Shown in pieces: positions 25,798-32,320 of a DNA stretch of 64,000 nt. Below the pieces are notes generated by a model. The model saw nothing but the letters and a program-made list of their open reading frames with translations. It made no database searches and had not been told where the DNA came from. This stretch comes from Cognatilysobacter terrigena (GTDB lineage: Bacteria > Pseudomonadota > Gammaproteobacteria > Xanthomonadales > Xanthomonadaceae): NCBI RefSeq assembly GCF_004361065.1, contig NZ_SELT01000013.1, positions 1 to 64,000 on the forward strand, written 5' to 3'. The translations under genes were made by a program, and so were the position numbers. Numbering within the stretch: the stretch's first letter is position 1; each line of letters begins with the position of its first letter.

Positions 25798-26187
25798 TCA
25801 GCCTGCCGCGAGCAGGTTCGCGTCGCGGATGAGCCGCCAGGCGCCGTCGGCGCCACGCCGGAACACCGACATCGCATAGCCGCCGCGTTCGTTCGCCCCG
25901 CCGCCATCGAGCGGTTCGATGCGGACCGACAGCCGCGTGACGGTGAACGCGAGATCGCCCGACACCTGCACCTCGCGCACGTCGCCGCTCGAGCGCAGGC
26001 GATGCGTCTTCAGCAGGCCGCGCAGGCCGTCCTCGAACGCGCGCCCGCCCTGCATCGGCTCGCGGCCGGGGACGAGGAATTCGGCGTCCTCCGCCATCAG
26101 CGACAGCACCGTGTCGACATCGCCGGCGGCCGTCGCGTCGTGCCATCTCTGGATCAGCGCGCGGATCGCCTGTTCGTCGGTCGTCAT
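25798..26187 (-). CDS. SnoaL/SgcJ-like (NTF2-fold) protein
   Basis: A 129-residue small alpha+beta protein of the NTF2-like superfamily. The N-terminal helix IRALIQRWHDATAAGDVDTVLSLMAEDAEFLVPG is diagnostic in pattern (seen in parts), and the beta-sheet end WRLIRDANLLAAG is typical of SgcJ/EcaC-like proteins. Starting at 26187 it has a GGAGG box just upstream. It is the last gene of the minus-strand run after the molybdoenzyme anchor gene, 20 bases downstream, so it may be co-transcribed. Such proteins have diverse roles (ketosteroid isomerase-like, polyketide cyclase-like, binding proteins); none can be assigned here. Confidence 0.8.
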   Translation of the reverse strand: MTTDEQAIRALIQRWHDATAAGDVDTVLSLMAEDAEFLVPGREPMQGGRAFEDGLRGLLKTHRLRSSGDVREVQVSGDLAFTVTRLSVRIEPLDGGGANERGGYAMSVFRRGADGAWRLIRDANLLAAG

Positions 26188-26207: not shown

Positions 26208-27158
26208 TCAGTAGTACTGCGACACCAGGTGGCGGGCTTCCGCGAAGAACAGCCAGCGCTCGACGAACGCGCCGACGAGCACCGACATCGTCGCGATGAC
26301 CAGCAGCGTCGGCGCTGCGGCGGGAACGACCCACGTCGCGGCCAGCGCGAGCGCGGGCAGGGTGGCGAACGCGATCAGCGCGAACGCACGCAGGCGCGAG
26401 GCATGCTTGCGCGCGAGCACGAACACCATCTCGCGCGTCACGAAGTTGCCTTCGGTGTGTGGGCGCTCGAACACGCGGACCTCGCGCGCCGGCAGGCCGA
26501 TGGCCTCGCCGCGGGTGACGGGGAGCGGCGTCGTATCGATCGCGGACCAGTAGCGCGCCTTGAGCAGTGCGAGCGCGCCGAGGCCGACGATCGTCAGCAG
26601 GAGCGTCGCACGCGATGGCGTCGCGCCGAAAACCGCGCGCAGCGTCAGGAATGCGACTCCGCCAGAGACGAGGGCGAACAGCAGGTAGACCGCGGGCACG
26701 CTGCGATGCGTCCACGCCGGGATCGGCTTGAGCGACGCGTAGATCATCGACGTGCAATAGACGGTCGCAAGCGCGCCGACCGCGAGCAGCACGGCGGCGA
26801 CGGCGAGCACGATGCCACTGGTGAGCGACGGACCACCGAGGTCGATCGCGAGAAAGCGCGGCAGGAACGCGGCGATGAGCAGCAGCGCGGGTACGAACGT
26901 CGCGAGCGACACCACGCCTTCGCGCGACAGCCACGACGTGCGCCACTGCGAGAACGCGCGCCAGGCCCGCAGCGGCTTGCCGAGGTGGCCGACGGAGCAC
27001 AGCAGGCCGATCGTCGACATCAGCACGCCCAGCACGAGCGCCGACAGCAGCGCACGCGGCGAGGTGCCGATCAGTGCCGCAATGCCGCTCCATGCGAGCA
27101 GCCCATAGCCAAGGCCGGAGAGCGTGGTGAAAAAGATGACGGACAGGGCGGGATGCAT
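26208..27158 (-). CDS. DmsC/SoeC-type membrane anchor subunit of a molybdoenzyme
   Basis: A 316-residue polytopic membrane protein with about eight hydrophobic helices, of the DmsC family of quinol/quinone-reactive anchors. Recognisable pieces are MHPALSVIFFTTLSGLGYG at the N-terminus, HLGKPLRAWRAFSQWRTSWLSRE after helix 2 (the conserved HLGxPxRA-SWLSRE signature), and YASLKPIPAWTH after helix 4. It would accept electrons from the iron-sulfur subunit, encoded just upstream (seven bases away), and pass them to or from quinone. Because the catalytic subunit has no Tat signal, the complex should face the cytoplasm, as in SoeABC rather than DmsABC. The start at 27158 is the one that matches the family N-terminus. 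Confidence 0.88.
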   Translation of the reverse strand: MHPALSVIFFTTLSGLGYGLLAWSGIAALIGTSPRALLSALVLGVLMSTIGLLCSVGHLGKPLRAWRAFSQWRTSWLSREGVVSLATFVPALLLIAAFLPRFLAIDLGGPSLTSGIVLAVAAVLLAVGALATVYCTSMIYASLKPIPAWTHRSVPAVYLLFALVSGGVAFLTLRAVFGATPSRATLLLTIVGLGALALLKARYWSAIDTTPLPVTRGEAIGLPAREVRVFERPHTEGNFVTREMVFVLARKHASRLRAFALIAFATLPALALAATWVVPAAAPTLLVIATMSVLVGAFVERWLFFAEARHLVSQYY

Positions 27159-27165
27159 GCGGTCC

Positions 27166-28098
27166 TCAGCGCGACAGCACGCGGTCGAGCCAGCGCAGCA
27201 CGGGCGGCAGTGCCTTCGTGTCGAGCGCTTCCTCGGTGACCGTCGCCGTCGTCGCACCACGACGCGGTCGCGGCGGCAGGTACTTGTTGGTCGGCTTGTA
27301 GCCTAGCGATGCCATCAGATCGACGCCGCCGCGCTCGGCGACCAGCTTCGACACCTTGGACTCGGGATCGGCGAGGTCGCCGAAGTGGCGCGCGCGGGTC
27401 GGGCAGGCCTGCACGCAGGCCGGCTGGCGCTCGGCTTCCGGCAGGTTCTCGTTGTAGATGCGGTCGATGCAGAGCGTGCACTTCTTCATGACGCCCTCGA
27501 CGCTGCTGTACTCGCGCGCGCCGTAGGGGCAGGCCCACGAGCACAGCTTGCAGCCGATGCACTTGCTCTCGTCCACCAGCACGATGCCGTCCTCGGCGCG
27601 CTTGTAGCTCGCGCCGGTCGGGCAGACGGTGACGCAGGCCGGTTCCTCGCAGTGCAGGCAGGAGCGCGGGAAGTGCAGCGTCATCGCCGGTTGCGCGGCT
27701 TCGGCGGCGATTGACATGGAACCGCAGGCCGAGCCGCGCTTTGCGACCGTCGCGTCCGGACTGTCCGCTTGCGCCGGCTGCGCGCGTGCCGCGTCGAGGC
27801 CGACACTCCGGTCGAAATCACCGAGATGCCCCGCATCACGCATCGACGTATCGGACTCCGACGGCGCGGAAATCGGCGCATCGTCGACCAGCACCGCCGC
27901 CAGCTCGTAGCTGTGCACGCGGTTGAACCACACGCCGGTCGGCTTCTCGCCGTAGGGCTTCTCGTCCGGCAGCGGCGCGGCGAATCCGCCTGCGTTCCAT
28001 TCCTTGCAGCTCACCGCGCAGGCGTGGCAGCCGACGCAGGTGTCGAGGTCGATGACCAGCCCGAGCTTCTTCGGCGTCGGCGGCGGCAGCATCGTCAC
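27166..28098 (-). CDS. Four-cluster ferredoxin-type iron-sulfur subunit (DmsB/SoeB-like)
   Basis: A 310-residue electron-transfer subunit with four [4Fe-4S] Cys groups: CVGCHACAVSC at residues 21-31, CLHCEEPACVTVCPTGA, CIGCKLCSWACPYGA, and CTLCIDRI with a late ACVQACPTRA. The protein is longer than usual DmsB/SoeB (about 200-240) because of a roughly 75-residue low-complexity, Asp/Ser/Ala-rich insertion between the first and second Cys groups (about residues 63-138). It begins at GTG 28098; an ATG two codons later (28092) is equally possible. It overlaps the small membrane gene upstream by four bases and sits between the catalytic and anchor genes, so it wires the molybdenum subunit to the membrane quinone site. 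Confidence 0.9.
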   Translation of the reverse strand: MTMLPPPTPKKLGLVIDLDTCVGCHACAVSCKEWNAGGFAAPLPDEKPYGEKPTGVWFNRVHSYELAAVLVDDAPISAPSESDTSMRDAGHLGDFDRSVGLDAARAQPAQADSPDATVAKRGSACGSMSIAAEAAQPAMTLHFPRSCLHCEEPACVTVCPTGASYKRAEDGIVLVDESKCIGCKLCSWACPYGAREYSSVEGVMKKCTLCIDRIYNENLPEAERQPACVQACPTRARHFGDLADPESKVSKLVAERGGVDLMASLGYKPTNKYLPPRPRRGATTATVTEEALDTKALPPVLRWLDRVLSR

Positions 28099-28307
28099 CG
28101 GCGACGCCCTCCGCGCGCGAGCGCGACGCCAACGATGAAGATCGCGAGCGGAATCAGGAGGCTCGGCGCGATCGCCGTCAGCACGCCGCCCATGTCGCGT
28201 GCTTCCGACACGTCGCCGAACGGCTCGATCACGCCGTAGCCGAGCAGGATGATGAGCAGGAAGCCGAGCGCGATGAGCGCGTAGCCGATGATCTTTCGCG
28301 GCGTCAT
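28095..28307 (-). CDS. Small two-helix membrane protein of the molybdoenzyme operon
   Basis: A 70-residue protein with membrane segments at about residues 6-26 (IIGYALIALGFLLIILLGYG) and 45-65, joined by an acidic loop (EPFGDVSEARDMGG), ending in GGRRR. It overlaps the stop of the catalytic subunit (ATGA at 28304-28307) and the start of the iron-sulfur subunit, so all are translationally coupled. I do not recognise a family. A dedicated small subunit between A and B subunits is not part of DmsABC and may be a stabilising or assembly subunit of this complex. Confidence 0.75.
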   Translation of the reverse strand: MTPRKIIGYALIALGFLLIILLGYGVIEPFGDVSEARDMGGVLTAIAPSLLIPLAIFIVGVALARGGRRR

Positions 28308-31189
28308 GAGGCCTCGCGGGTGTCGCGTTCGCGACGGAAATCGGCGCCGTAGCGCAGTGGCGCGTCGTCGACGCGGCCGTGCGGCAGCGGTGCGAACTGC
28401 GGATGCGACTGCGCGTCGTGCGACGCGGACGGCGCGATGCGCACGCGCAGGTCGAACCACGCGGCCTGGCCGGTCACGGGATCGGCGTTCGCGTAGTCGC
28501 CCCTGGGCGTGATGTCGGAGATCAGGTGGTTGAGCAGGAAGCCCTTGGTCGCTTCCGGCGCGTCCTTCGGCAGCTTCCACGCACCACGACGCTTGCCGAT
28601 CGCGTTCCACGTCCACACGGTATCGGGCTGCACGTTCGATGCGGTGCGCGCCTGCACGGTGATCGTGCCGTGGTGCGACGTCACGTCGATCCAGTCCTCA
28701 TCGCCGATGCCATGGCGTTTCGCCGTGTCGGGATGCAGGTAGAGATAGTTGCGCGTGGCGATCTGCCGCAGCCAGGCGTTCTGCGAATGCCAGGCGTGGT
28801 ACATGAACATCGGGCGCTGCGTGATCGCGCTGAGCGGGAAGTCGCGCGACGCCGCATCGCCGAGCTGCGCGTGCTCGAACGGCTCGTACCAGATCGGCAA
28901 GGGATCAAAGTAGGTGGCGACGCGCTCGCGGTGCTCCGGCGGCGGCACGTTCGCGCCATGGCCCTGCGCGGCGAGGCGGAACTTCTGCAGCGTCTCCGAG
29001 TAGAGCTGCTGCACGATCGGCGCGCCACCGCCGAGGAAGCCCATCTGCTGCGCCCAGTCGAGATAGCCGCGGTTGGCCATCTTGTAATAGCGCGCGTGCT
29101 CGGGGATCTCGCTCCGCCAGAAACCGCCGTTGGCGATGTAGGTGTCGAGCTGCGCGGGATTCGGCGCACCTTTCGCTTCCTGCGAACCGTCGGCGCCGCG
29201 CCAACCGGCGAGCAGACCCACACCCGGCGCGCGTTCGTGGCGGACGATGTAGTCGGCGTAGTCGCGGTACTTCGCCGTGCCGTCCTCGTTGACGAGGCCC
29301 GGGAAGCCGAGCCGCGCGCCGAGATCGATCAGCACGCTCTGGAAGCCGCGGATGTCGCGCGGACGGCCCTGCGCATCAGGCTGCGTCGCCGGATCGAACA
29401 GTGGATGGCGGATCGCATCGGCCGCGCCGTCGGCGTCGGAGATCGGGCGATCGAGCAGCGAGATCGAATCGAAGCGCTCGAGATACGTCGGATCAGGGAA
29501 CACGAGGTCGGCGTAGGCGACCATCTCCGACGAGAACGCATCGCAGTAGATGATGCGCGGGATGCGGTACTCGCCGTTCTCATCCTTGTCGGTGAGCCAG
29601 CCGATGGTCTCGGCGGTGTTCATCGACGAGTTCCAGCTCATGTTCGCCATGAACATCATGAGCGTGTCGATCCTGTACGGATCGCGCGCCCAGGCGTTGC
29701 GGATGACGGTGTGCATCATCCCGTGCGCGGCGAGCGGGTAGCTCCACGAGAACGCGTGGTCGATACGGCGCGGCTGGCCGTGTTCGTCGACGACGAGATC
29801 CTCCGGGCCGTGCACGAAACCGAGCGGCGCGGCGTCGAGCACGCCGTTCGCCTGCCGCGCGCGCCCGGGCCGGTTCGGCGGCGGGATCGGTTTCGGAAAC
29901 GGCGGCTGGTAGCGGAACGAGCCGGGCGTATCGACTGCGCCGAGCAGCAGCTGCAGTACGTGCAGCGCGCGGCAGGTGTGGAAGCCATTGCTATGCGCGC
30001 TGATGCCGCGCATGGCGTGCATCGACACGGGGCGGCCGACCATCTCGGCGTGTTCGCGGCCCCATGCATCCGTCCATTGCACCGGCAGACGGATCTCGTG
30101 GTCGAACGCGTTCTCCGCGAGCTCGCGCGCGATGCGACGGATCGTGTCGGCGGGGATGCCGCAGCGTTCGCTGACCGCATCCGGCGAATACTGCGGATCG
30201 AGATAGCGCTCGGCGAGCAGTTGGAACGACGGCACGGCGATGCGGCCGTCGGCCAGCGTGTATTCGCCGACGACCGCGGGCTGCACATCGATCGAATTCG
30301 CGTCGACCGGCACACCGCTCGAACGATCGAAACACAGCGGACGACCTTCGCCATCGCGCGCGAACAGACCGTCATCCGCGGCACCCGGATCGCGGATCAC
30401 CAGCCAGTGCGCGTTCGTGTAGCGCACGAGGTAGTCGAGGTCGATGCGGTCGGTGCGCAGCAGCTCGTGGATCAGCGCGAACGCGAACAGGCCGTCGGTG
30501 CCGGGGCGGATGCCGATCCACTCGTCCGCTATCGCGCCGTAGCCGGTGCGCACAGGATTGACCGACACGATCTTCGCGCCGCGCGCCTTCAGGTGGCCGA
30601 GGCCGAGCTTGATCGGGTTGGAGTCGTGGTCTTCGGCGACGCCCCAGAGCATCAGGTAGCGCGTGCGTTCCCAGTCCGGTTCGCCGAATTCCCAGAAGCT
30701 GCCGCCCAGCGTGTAGAGCCCGCCCGCGGCCATGTTCACCGAGCAGAAGCCGCCGTGTGCGGCGTAGTTCACCGTGCCGAACTGCTGCGCCCACCAGCCG
30801 GTCAGCGCCTGCGATTGGTCGCGGCCGGTGAAGAAGGCCAGCTCGTCCGGATTGCGCTCGCGGATCGGCTTGAGCCAGGACGTCGCGAGGTCGAGCGCCT
30901 CGTCCCAGCTGATCTCCTCGAACTCGCCCTTGCCGCGCTCGCCGACGCGCTTGAGCGGCCGGGAGAGCCGGGCGGGGGAGTAGTGCTGCATGATCCCGGC
31001 GGAGCCCTTGGCGCAGAGGACGCCCTTGTTGACCGGGTGCTCGGGGTTGCCCTGGATGTACCGGATCCGACCGCCCTGCAGCCAGACCTTGATACCGCAG
31101 CGGCAGGCGCACATGTAGCAGGTGGTGGTGCGGACCTCGTCACCCGGTGTCGGGGAGGTGTCGATCACCGGTTCGGAAGGGCCGCGCAT
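28304..31189 (-). CDS. Molybdopterin-dependent oxidoreductase catalytic subunit, SoeA-like (sulfite:quinone oxidoreductase-like)
   Basis: A 961-residue member of the DMSO-reductase superfamily. An N-terminal [4Fe-4S] motif is formed by Cys24, Cys27, Cys31 and Cys59 (TTCYMCACRCG and GVLCAKG). The probable Mo ligand is Cys149 in HGGFCSVNMA, so it belongs to the Cys-ligand group (Nap, Psr/Phs, Ttr, Soe) rather than the Ser-ligand DmsA group. There is no twin-arginine signal: the Cys motif starts at residue 24. With a DmsB-like and a DmsC-like partner downstream this is the organisation of SoeABC, the cytoplasm-facing sulfite dehydrogenase. The start at 31189 is chosen because homology begins there. 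The identity as sulfite oxidiser is inference; tetrathionate or polysulfide chemistry cannot be excluded. Confidence 0.85.
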   Translation of the reverse strand: MRGPSEPVIDTSPTPGDEVRTTTCYMCACRCGIKVWLQGGRIRYIQGNPEHPVNKGVLCAKGSAGIMQHYSPARLSRPLKRVGERGKGEFEEISWDEALDLATSWLKPIRERNPDELAFFTGRDQSQALTGWWAQQFGTVNYAAHGGFCSVNMAAGGLYTLGGSFWEFGEPDWERTRYLMLWGVAEDHDSNPIKLGLGHLKARGAKIVSVNPVRTGYGAIADEWIGIRPGTDGLFAFALIHELLRTDRIDLDYLVRYTNAHWLVIRDPGAADDGLFARDGEGRPLCFDRSSGVPVDANSIDVQPAVVGEYTLADGRIAVPSFQLLAERYLDPQYSPDAVSERCGIPADTIRRIARELAENAFDHEIRLPVQWTDAWGREHAEMVGRPVSMHAMRGISAHSNGFHTCRALHVLQLLLGAVDTPGSFRYQPPFPKPIPPPNRPGRARQANGVLDAAPLGFVHGPEDLVVDEHGQPRRIDHAFSWSYPLAAHGMMHTVIRNAWARDPYRIDTLMMFMANMSWNSSMNTAETIGWLTDKDENGEYRIPRIIYCDAFSSEMVAYADLVFPDPTYLERFDSISLLDRPISDADGAADAIRHPLFDPATQPDAQGRPRDIRGFQSVLIDLGARLGFPGLVNEDGTAKYRDYADYIVRHERAPGVGLLAGWRGADGSQEAKGAPNPAQLDTYIANGGFWRSEIPEHARYYKMANRGYLDWAQQMGFLGGGAPIVQQLYSETLQKFRLAAQGHGANVPPPEHRERVATYFDPLPIWYEPFEHAQLGDAASRDFPLSAITQRPMFMYHAWHSQNAWLRQIATRNYLYLHPDTAKRHGIGDEDWIDVTSHHGTITVQARTASNVQPDTVWTWNAIGKRRGAWKLPKDAPEATKGFLLNHLISDITPRGDYANADPVTGQAAWFDLRVRIAPSASHDAQSHPQFAPLPHGRVDDAPLRYGADFRRERDTREAS

Positions 31190-31351: not shown

Positions 31352-32320
31352 ATGGAACGCATCGAACGCATCCACGCCCTGCACCGCATCCTGAGCGCCT
31401 CGCGCTATCCGGTGACGGTGCAGCGCCTGCAGGAAGAGCTGCAGTGCTCGCGCGCGACGGTCTACCGCGACCTCGCCTACCTGCGCGACTACCTGATGGC
31501 GCCCGTCGTCGGTAACGGCGAGGCCGGCTTCCGCTACGACCACAGCGACGGCACGCGCTTCGAGCTGCCGGGCCTGTGGCTGTCGTCCGAAGAACTCTAT
31601 TCACTGCTCGCCGCCCAGCAGTTGCTGGTGCGCTCGGGTGGCGGCGTGCTGTCGAACGCGCTGGCGCCGCTGCAGCAGCGCATCGAGAAACTGCTCGGCG
31701 AGCATGCGGGCGGCCGTCGCGTGCCGGTCGAGCGCGTGCGCGTCATTCCGCATCGCCGCCGTCGCCTCGACGAAGCGAGCTTCCGCAACGTCGCCACCGC
31801 GGTGCTCGACCGTCGCCAGCTGGTGTTCGATTACCGCGCACGTTCGACCGACGAGAAGACCCGTCGCACCGTCTCCCCGCAGCGCCTCACGCACTACCGC
31901 GAGAACTGGTACCTCGACGCCTGGGACCACGAGCGCGAAGCGCTGCGCAGTTTCGCCGTCGACCGCGTGCAGAGCGCCAAGGTGTCCGACGAGCCGGCGA
32001 AAGACGTGCCGGACGAGGAGCTGGATCGCCAGCTGTCGTCGAGCTACGGCATCTTCAGCGGTGCGCCCAAGGGCTGGGCGACGATCCTGTTCTCGCCGAA
32101 GTCCGCGCGCTGGGTCGCCGACGAGCACTGGCATTCGCAGCAGCAGGGCCGGTTCCTGCCGGACGGGCGCTACGAGCTCAAGGTGCCGTACAGCACCGAA
32201 CGCGAGCTGCTGATGGACGTCATGCATTACGGCGCTGATGCCGAGATCGTGGAACCTGCCGCGCTGCGCCAGCAGGCGATCACGCACCTCGAACTCTCGC
32301 TGGGCAAGTACGGGCGCTGA
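31352..32320 (+). CDS. HTH-WYL-domain transcriptional regulator
   Basis: A 322-residue regulator. Residues 1-60 form a winged helix-turn-helix of the HTH_11/DeoR-like type (LHRILSASRYPVTVQRLQEEL, CSRATVYRDLAYLRDYL). A WYL domain occupies about 140-215, with the name-giving region ENWYLDAWDHE and FAVDRVQSAKV, and a C-terminal WCX-like segment ends the protein. WYL domains sense small ligands or nucleic acid. The gene is divergent from the molybdoenzyme operon with 162 bases between the starts, so it may control that operon, but this class often regulates distant targets (for example DNA-damage genes), so the link is only a proximity inference. Confidence 0.88.
   Translation: MERIERIHALHRILSASRYPVTVQRLQEELQCSRATVYRDLAYLRDYLMAPVVGNGEAGFRYDHSDGTRFELPGLWLSSEELYSLLAAQQLLVRSGGGVLSNALAPLQQRIEKLLGEHAGGRRVPVERVRVIPHRRRRLDEASFRNVATAVLDRRQLVFDYRARSTDEKTRRTVSPQRLTHYRENWYLDAWDHEREALRSFAVDRVQSAKVSDEPAKDVPDEELDRQLSSSYGIFSGAPKGWATILFSPKSARWVADEHWHSQQQGRFLPDGRYELKVPYSTERELLMDVMHYGADAEIVEPAALRQQAITHLELSLGKYGR

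Follow-up and report, generated by a model that had tools for sequence, protein, structure and literature searches.

A probable SoeABC-type sulfite:quinone oxidoreductase and a linked small membrane protein gene in Cognatilysobacter terrigena

SoeABC, a sulfite:quinone oxidoreductase, is known mainly from sulfur oxidisers and roseobacters. In DmsABC and YnfFGH the catalytic subunit is exported by the twin-arginine (Tat) system, and PhsABC, PsrABC and TtrABC are periplasmic. CydX, a protein of one helix, and CbdX are small membrane subunits. Here we describe a four-gene locus at positions 26208-31189 of a 64,000-nucleotide window (the whole stretch of DNA analysed, positions 1 to 64,000 of contig NZ_SELT01000013.1) from Cognatilysobacter terrigena. 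The genes, all on the minus strand, encode a molybdenum-containing catalytic subunit (A), a small membrane protein (S), an iron-sulfur subunit (B) and a membrane anchor (C); a first-pass annotation of the DNA had their coordinates and strand right. The locus probably encodes a cytoplasm-facing SoeABC-type sulfite:quinone oxidoreductase, with S as a family-specific accessory membrane protein. We read it as a sulfite-oxidising SoeABC because of clade, ligands, topology and context, and S as an accessory only because of linkage, gene coupling and selection.

The locus resembles the SoeABC systems of Allochromatium vinosum, Aquifex aeolicus and Ruegeria pomeroyi, a likeness taken from papers without comparing the sequences, in its gene order A-B-C, its cysteine-ligated molybdenum subunit without a visible Tat signal, its 16-cysteine B subunit, its DmsC/NrfD-type anchor of eight helices predicted to face the cytoplasm, and in having relatives among sulfur oxidisers and close to xsc. 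Unlike those systems, the window has an extra 70-residue membrane protein gene between A and B and a SoeB loop that measures 112 residues against 46-55, and a search of its genome for a sulfite source, limited to xsc, gave nothing. By Pfam, A has molybdopterin domains, B has ferredoxin domains and C matches DmsC, the last in agreement with the DmsC-type anchor of the first-pass annotation.

Alignment places Cys149 of A, already suspected as the molybdenum ligand from the sequence, in the ligand column. This column holds cysteine in 40 of 40 SoeA-like rows, in NapA, in 8 Phs/Psr-like rows and in 3 Ttr-like rows; it holds serine in E. coli DmsA and YnfE, and a recoded stop in FdnG. No Tat signal was seen by eye at the N-terminus of A (MRGPSEPVIDTSPTPGDEVRTTTCYMC...), as the first-pass annotation had also noted. 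In a tree of 55 rows, calculated by a quick search without bootstrap and with long outgroup branches, the 40 SoeA-like rows (the window's A and 39 others) form a single clade with a Shimodaira-Hasegawa-like approximate likelihood ratio (SH-aLRT) support of 100. Outside it lie 8 Phs/Psr-like and 3 Ttr-like rows, which score below the curated cut-offs of those families, and E. coli DmsA, YnfE, NapA and FdnG. The SoeA-like clade includes Thioalkalivibrio thiocyanoxidans ARh2, Ectothiorhodospira, Thiofilum, Thiothrix and Thiobacillus. A scan for named relatives confirmed 585, of which the best 80 loci were kept; sulfur oxidisers in this set include T. thiocyanoxidans ARh2, Ectothiorhodospira shaposhnikovii, Thiofilum flexile and entries of Thiobacillus and Thiothrix. 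Identity to the window's A is 53-57% in sulfur-oxidiser A proteins and mostly 58-66% in alphaproteobacterial ones. In PMC6382920, putative soeABC operons are reported for all 75 Thioalkalivibrio strains studied.

The window's own genome contains one soeA copy; a soeA match was found in 73 of 149 relatives of this genome (E 1e-50 or better) and in 119 of 370 genomes of the class (E 1e-80). Since Lysobacter antibioticus (L181) is placed among the rows of the window's family in the tree, the family appears to be the Xanthomonadaceae (Lysobacteraceae). Several family loci, L211, L207 and L222 among them, carry in-frame inserts in SoeA. Most of these follow window residue 291 or 781, where they reach 134 and 83 residues, respectively; the window copy lacks them.

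It is improbable that the complex runs on something other than sulfite, such as another sulfur oxyanion, or works as a reductase, in the manner of PhsABC, PsrABC or TtrABC. The tree sets A apart from the Phs/Psr-like and Ttr-like rows, which stand on separate branches and so rule out these assignments within the limits of the long outgroup branches, and the lack of a visible Tat signal together with the inverted anchor described below speaks against a periplasmic reductase. TtrAB is given as periplasmic in part of PMC8076601. Nevertheless, these complexes share with the window a cysteine-ligated molybdenum enzyme and an NrfD-type anchor; the best NCBIfam match is PhsA (204.7 bits, cut-off 694), the best match in the PDB is 2vpw, a polysulfide/thiosulfate reductase, and the failure to find a sulfite source in a search for xsc alone would also suit such an enzyme.

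The structure model of SoeC contains eight long helices with a mean predicted local distance difference test (pLDDT) score of 88.6. Among solved folds it comes closest to ActC, from alternative complex III, and to PsrC, of which only ActC was matched at E <0.001. In 55 of 55 SoeC-like rows, lysine and arginine are commoner in the loops that follow helices 2, 4, 6 and 8, which are predicted to be cytoplasmic, a count that somewhat favours these loops, and is weakened as evidence, because they are also longer (84 vs 54 residues in the window). E. coli DmsC is reversed, with 2 such residues in the corresponding loops vs 7 in the others. The anchor is therefore predicted to be inverted relative to DmsC and to face the cytoplasm. 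This pattern fits the inverted, cytoplasm-facing SoeC with SoeAB on the N-side that is proposed in the available part of PMC8076601. DmsABC and YnfFGH share the three-subunit layout and the anchor family with the locus, and the Pfam match of C is to DmsC itself. However, their molybdenum ligand is serine, their anchor is predicted to be oppositely inserted, and A is distant from DmsA and YnfE in the tree. Thus, Cys149, the lack of a visible Tat signal and the predicted anchor topology rule out a DmsABC-type reductase, to which we assign almost no probability.

The product of xsc releases sulfite. On an Azospirillum plasmid (L100 7863-14817), one gene run comprises a 63%-identical A, its B and C partners, a small hypothetical gene and xsc, with transporter and phosphate acetyltransferase-type genes upstream; a 122-residue protein between soeC and xsc in this locus has no Pfam family. 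A tblastn screen of 112 loci, each exceeding 8 kb, gave xsc-like matches in 5 (the query's own locus included; one 27% identical) and SLC13-like matches in 10 (again including the query's own). In R. pomeroyi, soeABC adjoins pta and tauR according to a section of PMC4334477, and a section of PMC9769926 reports raised soeABC expression under conditions where its authors presume more sulfite.

Taken together, the tree, the molybdenum ligand, the anchor charge pattern and the relatives in sulfur oxidisers and beside xsc support the SoeABC-type sulfite-oxidising complex proposed in the first-pass annotation, which had made grouping away from SoeA the outcome that would count against it; A falls inside the SoeA-like clade. 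Several observations weigh on the other side. A search for xsc in the window's genome, the only sulfite source sought, gave no match at E 1e-150, so that xsc was rejected as a local source, and among the 149 relatives xsc occurs in 2, neither with a soeA match. MobA is recognised weakly, with no match in the genome at E 1e-20; in favour of the reading, a laxer search located a full-length divergent MobA at G000:C3:66545-67057 (E 2.5e-17). At the NCBIfam cut-offs no model recognised A or B, and C and S had no match. The SoeA-like clade takes its name from sulfur-oxidiser relatives and from papers, in a tree that does not contain the studied SoeA of A. vinosum and Aquifex. Finally, in the portion of PMC6382920 available, the soe sequences do not all fall in one group and the evidence for soeABC activity at that time is described as only genetic. 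As a separate observation on MobA, a full-length match of similar weakness occurs in 4 of 7 congeners and a stronger one in two, and that of G007 is only partial.

From the relationships above we infer sulfite as the substrate, quinone as the acceptor and the type of cofactor. SoeA, with a molybdenum-bis(molybdopterin guanine dinucleotide) (Mo-bisMGD) cofactor held by Cys149 and one [4Fe-4S] cluster, would oxidise cytoplasmic sulfite to sulfate; SoeB would relay the two electrons via four [4Fe-4S] clusters, and SoeC, lying upside down relative to DmsC, would deliver them to quinone. In what is probably a heterotroph, the complex would most likely serve to remove toxic sulfite and to save its electrons.

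The 16 cysteines of SoeB are invariant in 30 aligned rows and form four [4Fe-4S] motifs. From its first to its second group of cysteines, SoeB has a stretch of 112 residues in the window and of 110-113 in three congeners. Its length is graded within the family, compared with 46-55 in 44 of the 47 measurable non-family rows (of 121) and 66-79 in non-family L058, L059 and L071, the last two being the same place. The insertion of about 75 residues claimed earlier thus holds as some 60 residues more than in non-family proteins, and it is a variable, family-specific loop of low confidence, not a recognised domain: residues 70-133 have pLDDT <50 in the structure model. A repeated element was ruled out as the origin of the insert, since its DNA has no further copies in the genome (next best match about 43 bp at 84%, E 5e-4). 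The loop is longer in operons with S, with a median of 82 residues in 27 loci, than in those without, where the median of 22 loci is 52 (p 1.8e-4 with no correction for relatedness), a comparison covering the 49 of 52 family loci that could be measured and leaving out L054, L212 and L221, all without S.

The S gene is real and soe-linked. Its product contains two hydrophobic segments, and its reading frame overlaps those of A and B by 4 nt each, in accordance with the first-pass description of a two-helix protein coupled between A and B. S is 70 residues long and gapless in the window and 4 congeners (L031, L032, L033, L224), and all 10 pairs among these five have a nonsynonymous-to-synonymous rate ratio (dN/dS) of 0.31-0.46. 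As a tblastn query (E 1e-3), the window's S alone matched 11 of 40 loci, 26 of which were from the family. A and B flank an open reading frame (ORF) of 67-89 aa with two such segments in 27 of 52 family loci (51 plus L181, each with A and B; L217 and L225, with no B in the stretch, were left out). In the 121 non-family rows, where the hydrophobicity cut was slightly stricter, only L057 has a comparable ORF. A profile built from the 27 S sequences, all from soe loci, gave no match below 0.1, the L057 ORF included, in a six-frame search of these 121 rows and 4 further loci, and matched 26 family loci below 1e-4. Against the 149 relatives it gave 27 matches at E 1.7e-13 or better (next best 0.003), each of which adjoins soeA or lies within about 2 kb of it across an SLC13 gene. 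Against the 370 class genomes, nearly all non-family, the window's own S was the sole strong match, followed by three weak ones (1e-4 to 7e-4). Because these two genome searches scored no more than a limited set of first-look candidates in each genome, rare copies of S elsewhere could be missed.

S had no family match in Pfam, NCBIfam or the PDB: the best E among the 27 members was 0.0036 for the most frequent Pfam family and 0.0012 in NCBIfam, with scattered matches, the PDB profile search reached 0.02, and the database matches of the window's S itself were below cut-off. In the open-access PubMed Central (PMC) literature we found no paper joining SoeD with sulfite, soeABC with Lysobacter, or soeABC, 'sulfite dehydrogenase' and Xanthomonadaceae; those papers checked on SoeA or sulfite dehydrogenase and operons do not mention a 'small membrane protein'.

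The occurrence of S calls for 8 changes on the family tree, where the main S clade (support 92) has 20 rows, 19 of them with S. The gene is thus kept in close relatives, where its absence from all of them had been named as the refuting outcome. Its absence from 25 of the 52 family operons indicates that S is dispensable, a point against the reading of S as a subunit. Found in 27 of 52 family operons and in 0 of 121 non-family rows, S is therefore a lineage-specific accessory and not the general fourth Soe subunit of the first-pass annotation; elsewhere the Soe complex exists without it.

Other genes also lie within operons of the family. In 15 of 52 operons, 3 of them with S, A and B are separated by an SLC13/CitMHS permease gene (e.g. 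L050, L038, L051, L053), possibly with a role in sulfate or sulfite transport; in L050 it additionally matches Na_sulph_symp. In 9 of 52, none of them with S, a YbjQ-family gene separates soeB from soeC (e.g. L044, L047, L046, L041), and 5 operons have neither of these genes nor S. We do not claim that S and SLC13 or YbjQ exclude each other: the raw Fisher p values are 0.005 and 0.0006, but phylogenetically independent pairs do not reach significance (median p 1 and 0.5).

We consider it slightly favoured that S is physically a member of the complex, in which case the hairpin would most likely be a small subunit packed on SoeC or on the membrane-facing side of SoeB. In style, it resembles CydX/CbdX-type subunits, tiny membrane proteins coupled to the operon of a respiratory complex, with two helices against the one of CydX. 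A serious though less favoured alternative is that SoeABC is as described and S is a separate small membrane protein, such as an assembly helper, a transport-related or an unrelated protein, that is only co-expressed with it. The patchy distribution of S, its fast evolution (mean column identity 40%) and the use of the same A-B slot by a permease, an unlikely structural subunit, speak for this alternative; no strong S match away from soe, the overlaps on both sides and the longer SoeB loops in S-bearing operons argue for a closer association. A bolder version of the subunit view is unlikely: S would be a true fourth subunit, SoeD, of Xanthomonadaceae SoeABC, binding SoeC and the enlarged SoeB loop and tuning quinone access or membrane docking, with sister lineages carrying the SLC13 permease or YbjQ in the same operon, so that SoeABC would be modular with interchangeable partners.

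The features of the locus and its neighbours are listed in Table 1. A 973-residue antisense ORF over soeA was discarded as a high-GC artefact.

Table 1 Features of the soe-like locus and adjoining genes (window positions)
Feature	Position	Strand	Remarks
soeA-like catalytic subunit A, 961 aa	28304..31189	minus	[4Fe-4S] Cys24/27/31/59, Mo-ligand Cys149, no Tat signal by eye
S, 70-aa two-helix membrane protein	28095..28307	minus	basic ends, acidic loop; both ends predicted cytoplasmic
soeB-like iron-sulfur subunit B, 310 aa	27166..28098	minus	GTG start; 16 Cys, four [4Fe-4S] motifs
SoeB variable loop, residues 69-133	27700..27894	minus	low confidence in model; not a genomic repeat
soeC-like membrane anchor C, 316 aa	26208..27158	minus	DmsC/NrfD type, 8 long helices
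SnoaL/DUF4440 protein gene, 3' of soeC	25798..26187	minus	similar gene after soeC in 2 congeners (L032, L033)
Helix-turn-helix (HTH)/WYL regulator gene, divergent, adjoining soeA	31352..32320	plus	neighbour of the operon

The SoeABC-type enzyme is most likely of a known kind, and the small membrane gene carried by many operons of one family is an unnamed one that, within the genomes searched, turned up solely next to the genes of this enzyme. As a family linked to soe and nameless in the databases, S is a concrete candidate accessory subunit for a respiratory molybdoenzyme. If the soeA-like genes of 73 of the 149 relatives act as proposed, cytoplasmic sulfite oxidation would be widespread in a family for which it is seldom discussed.

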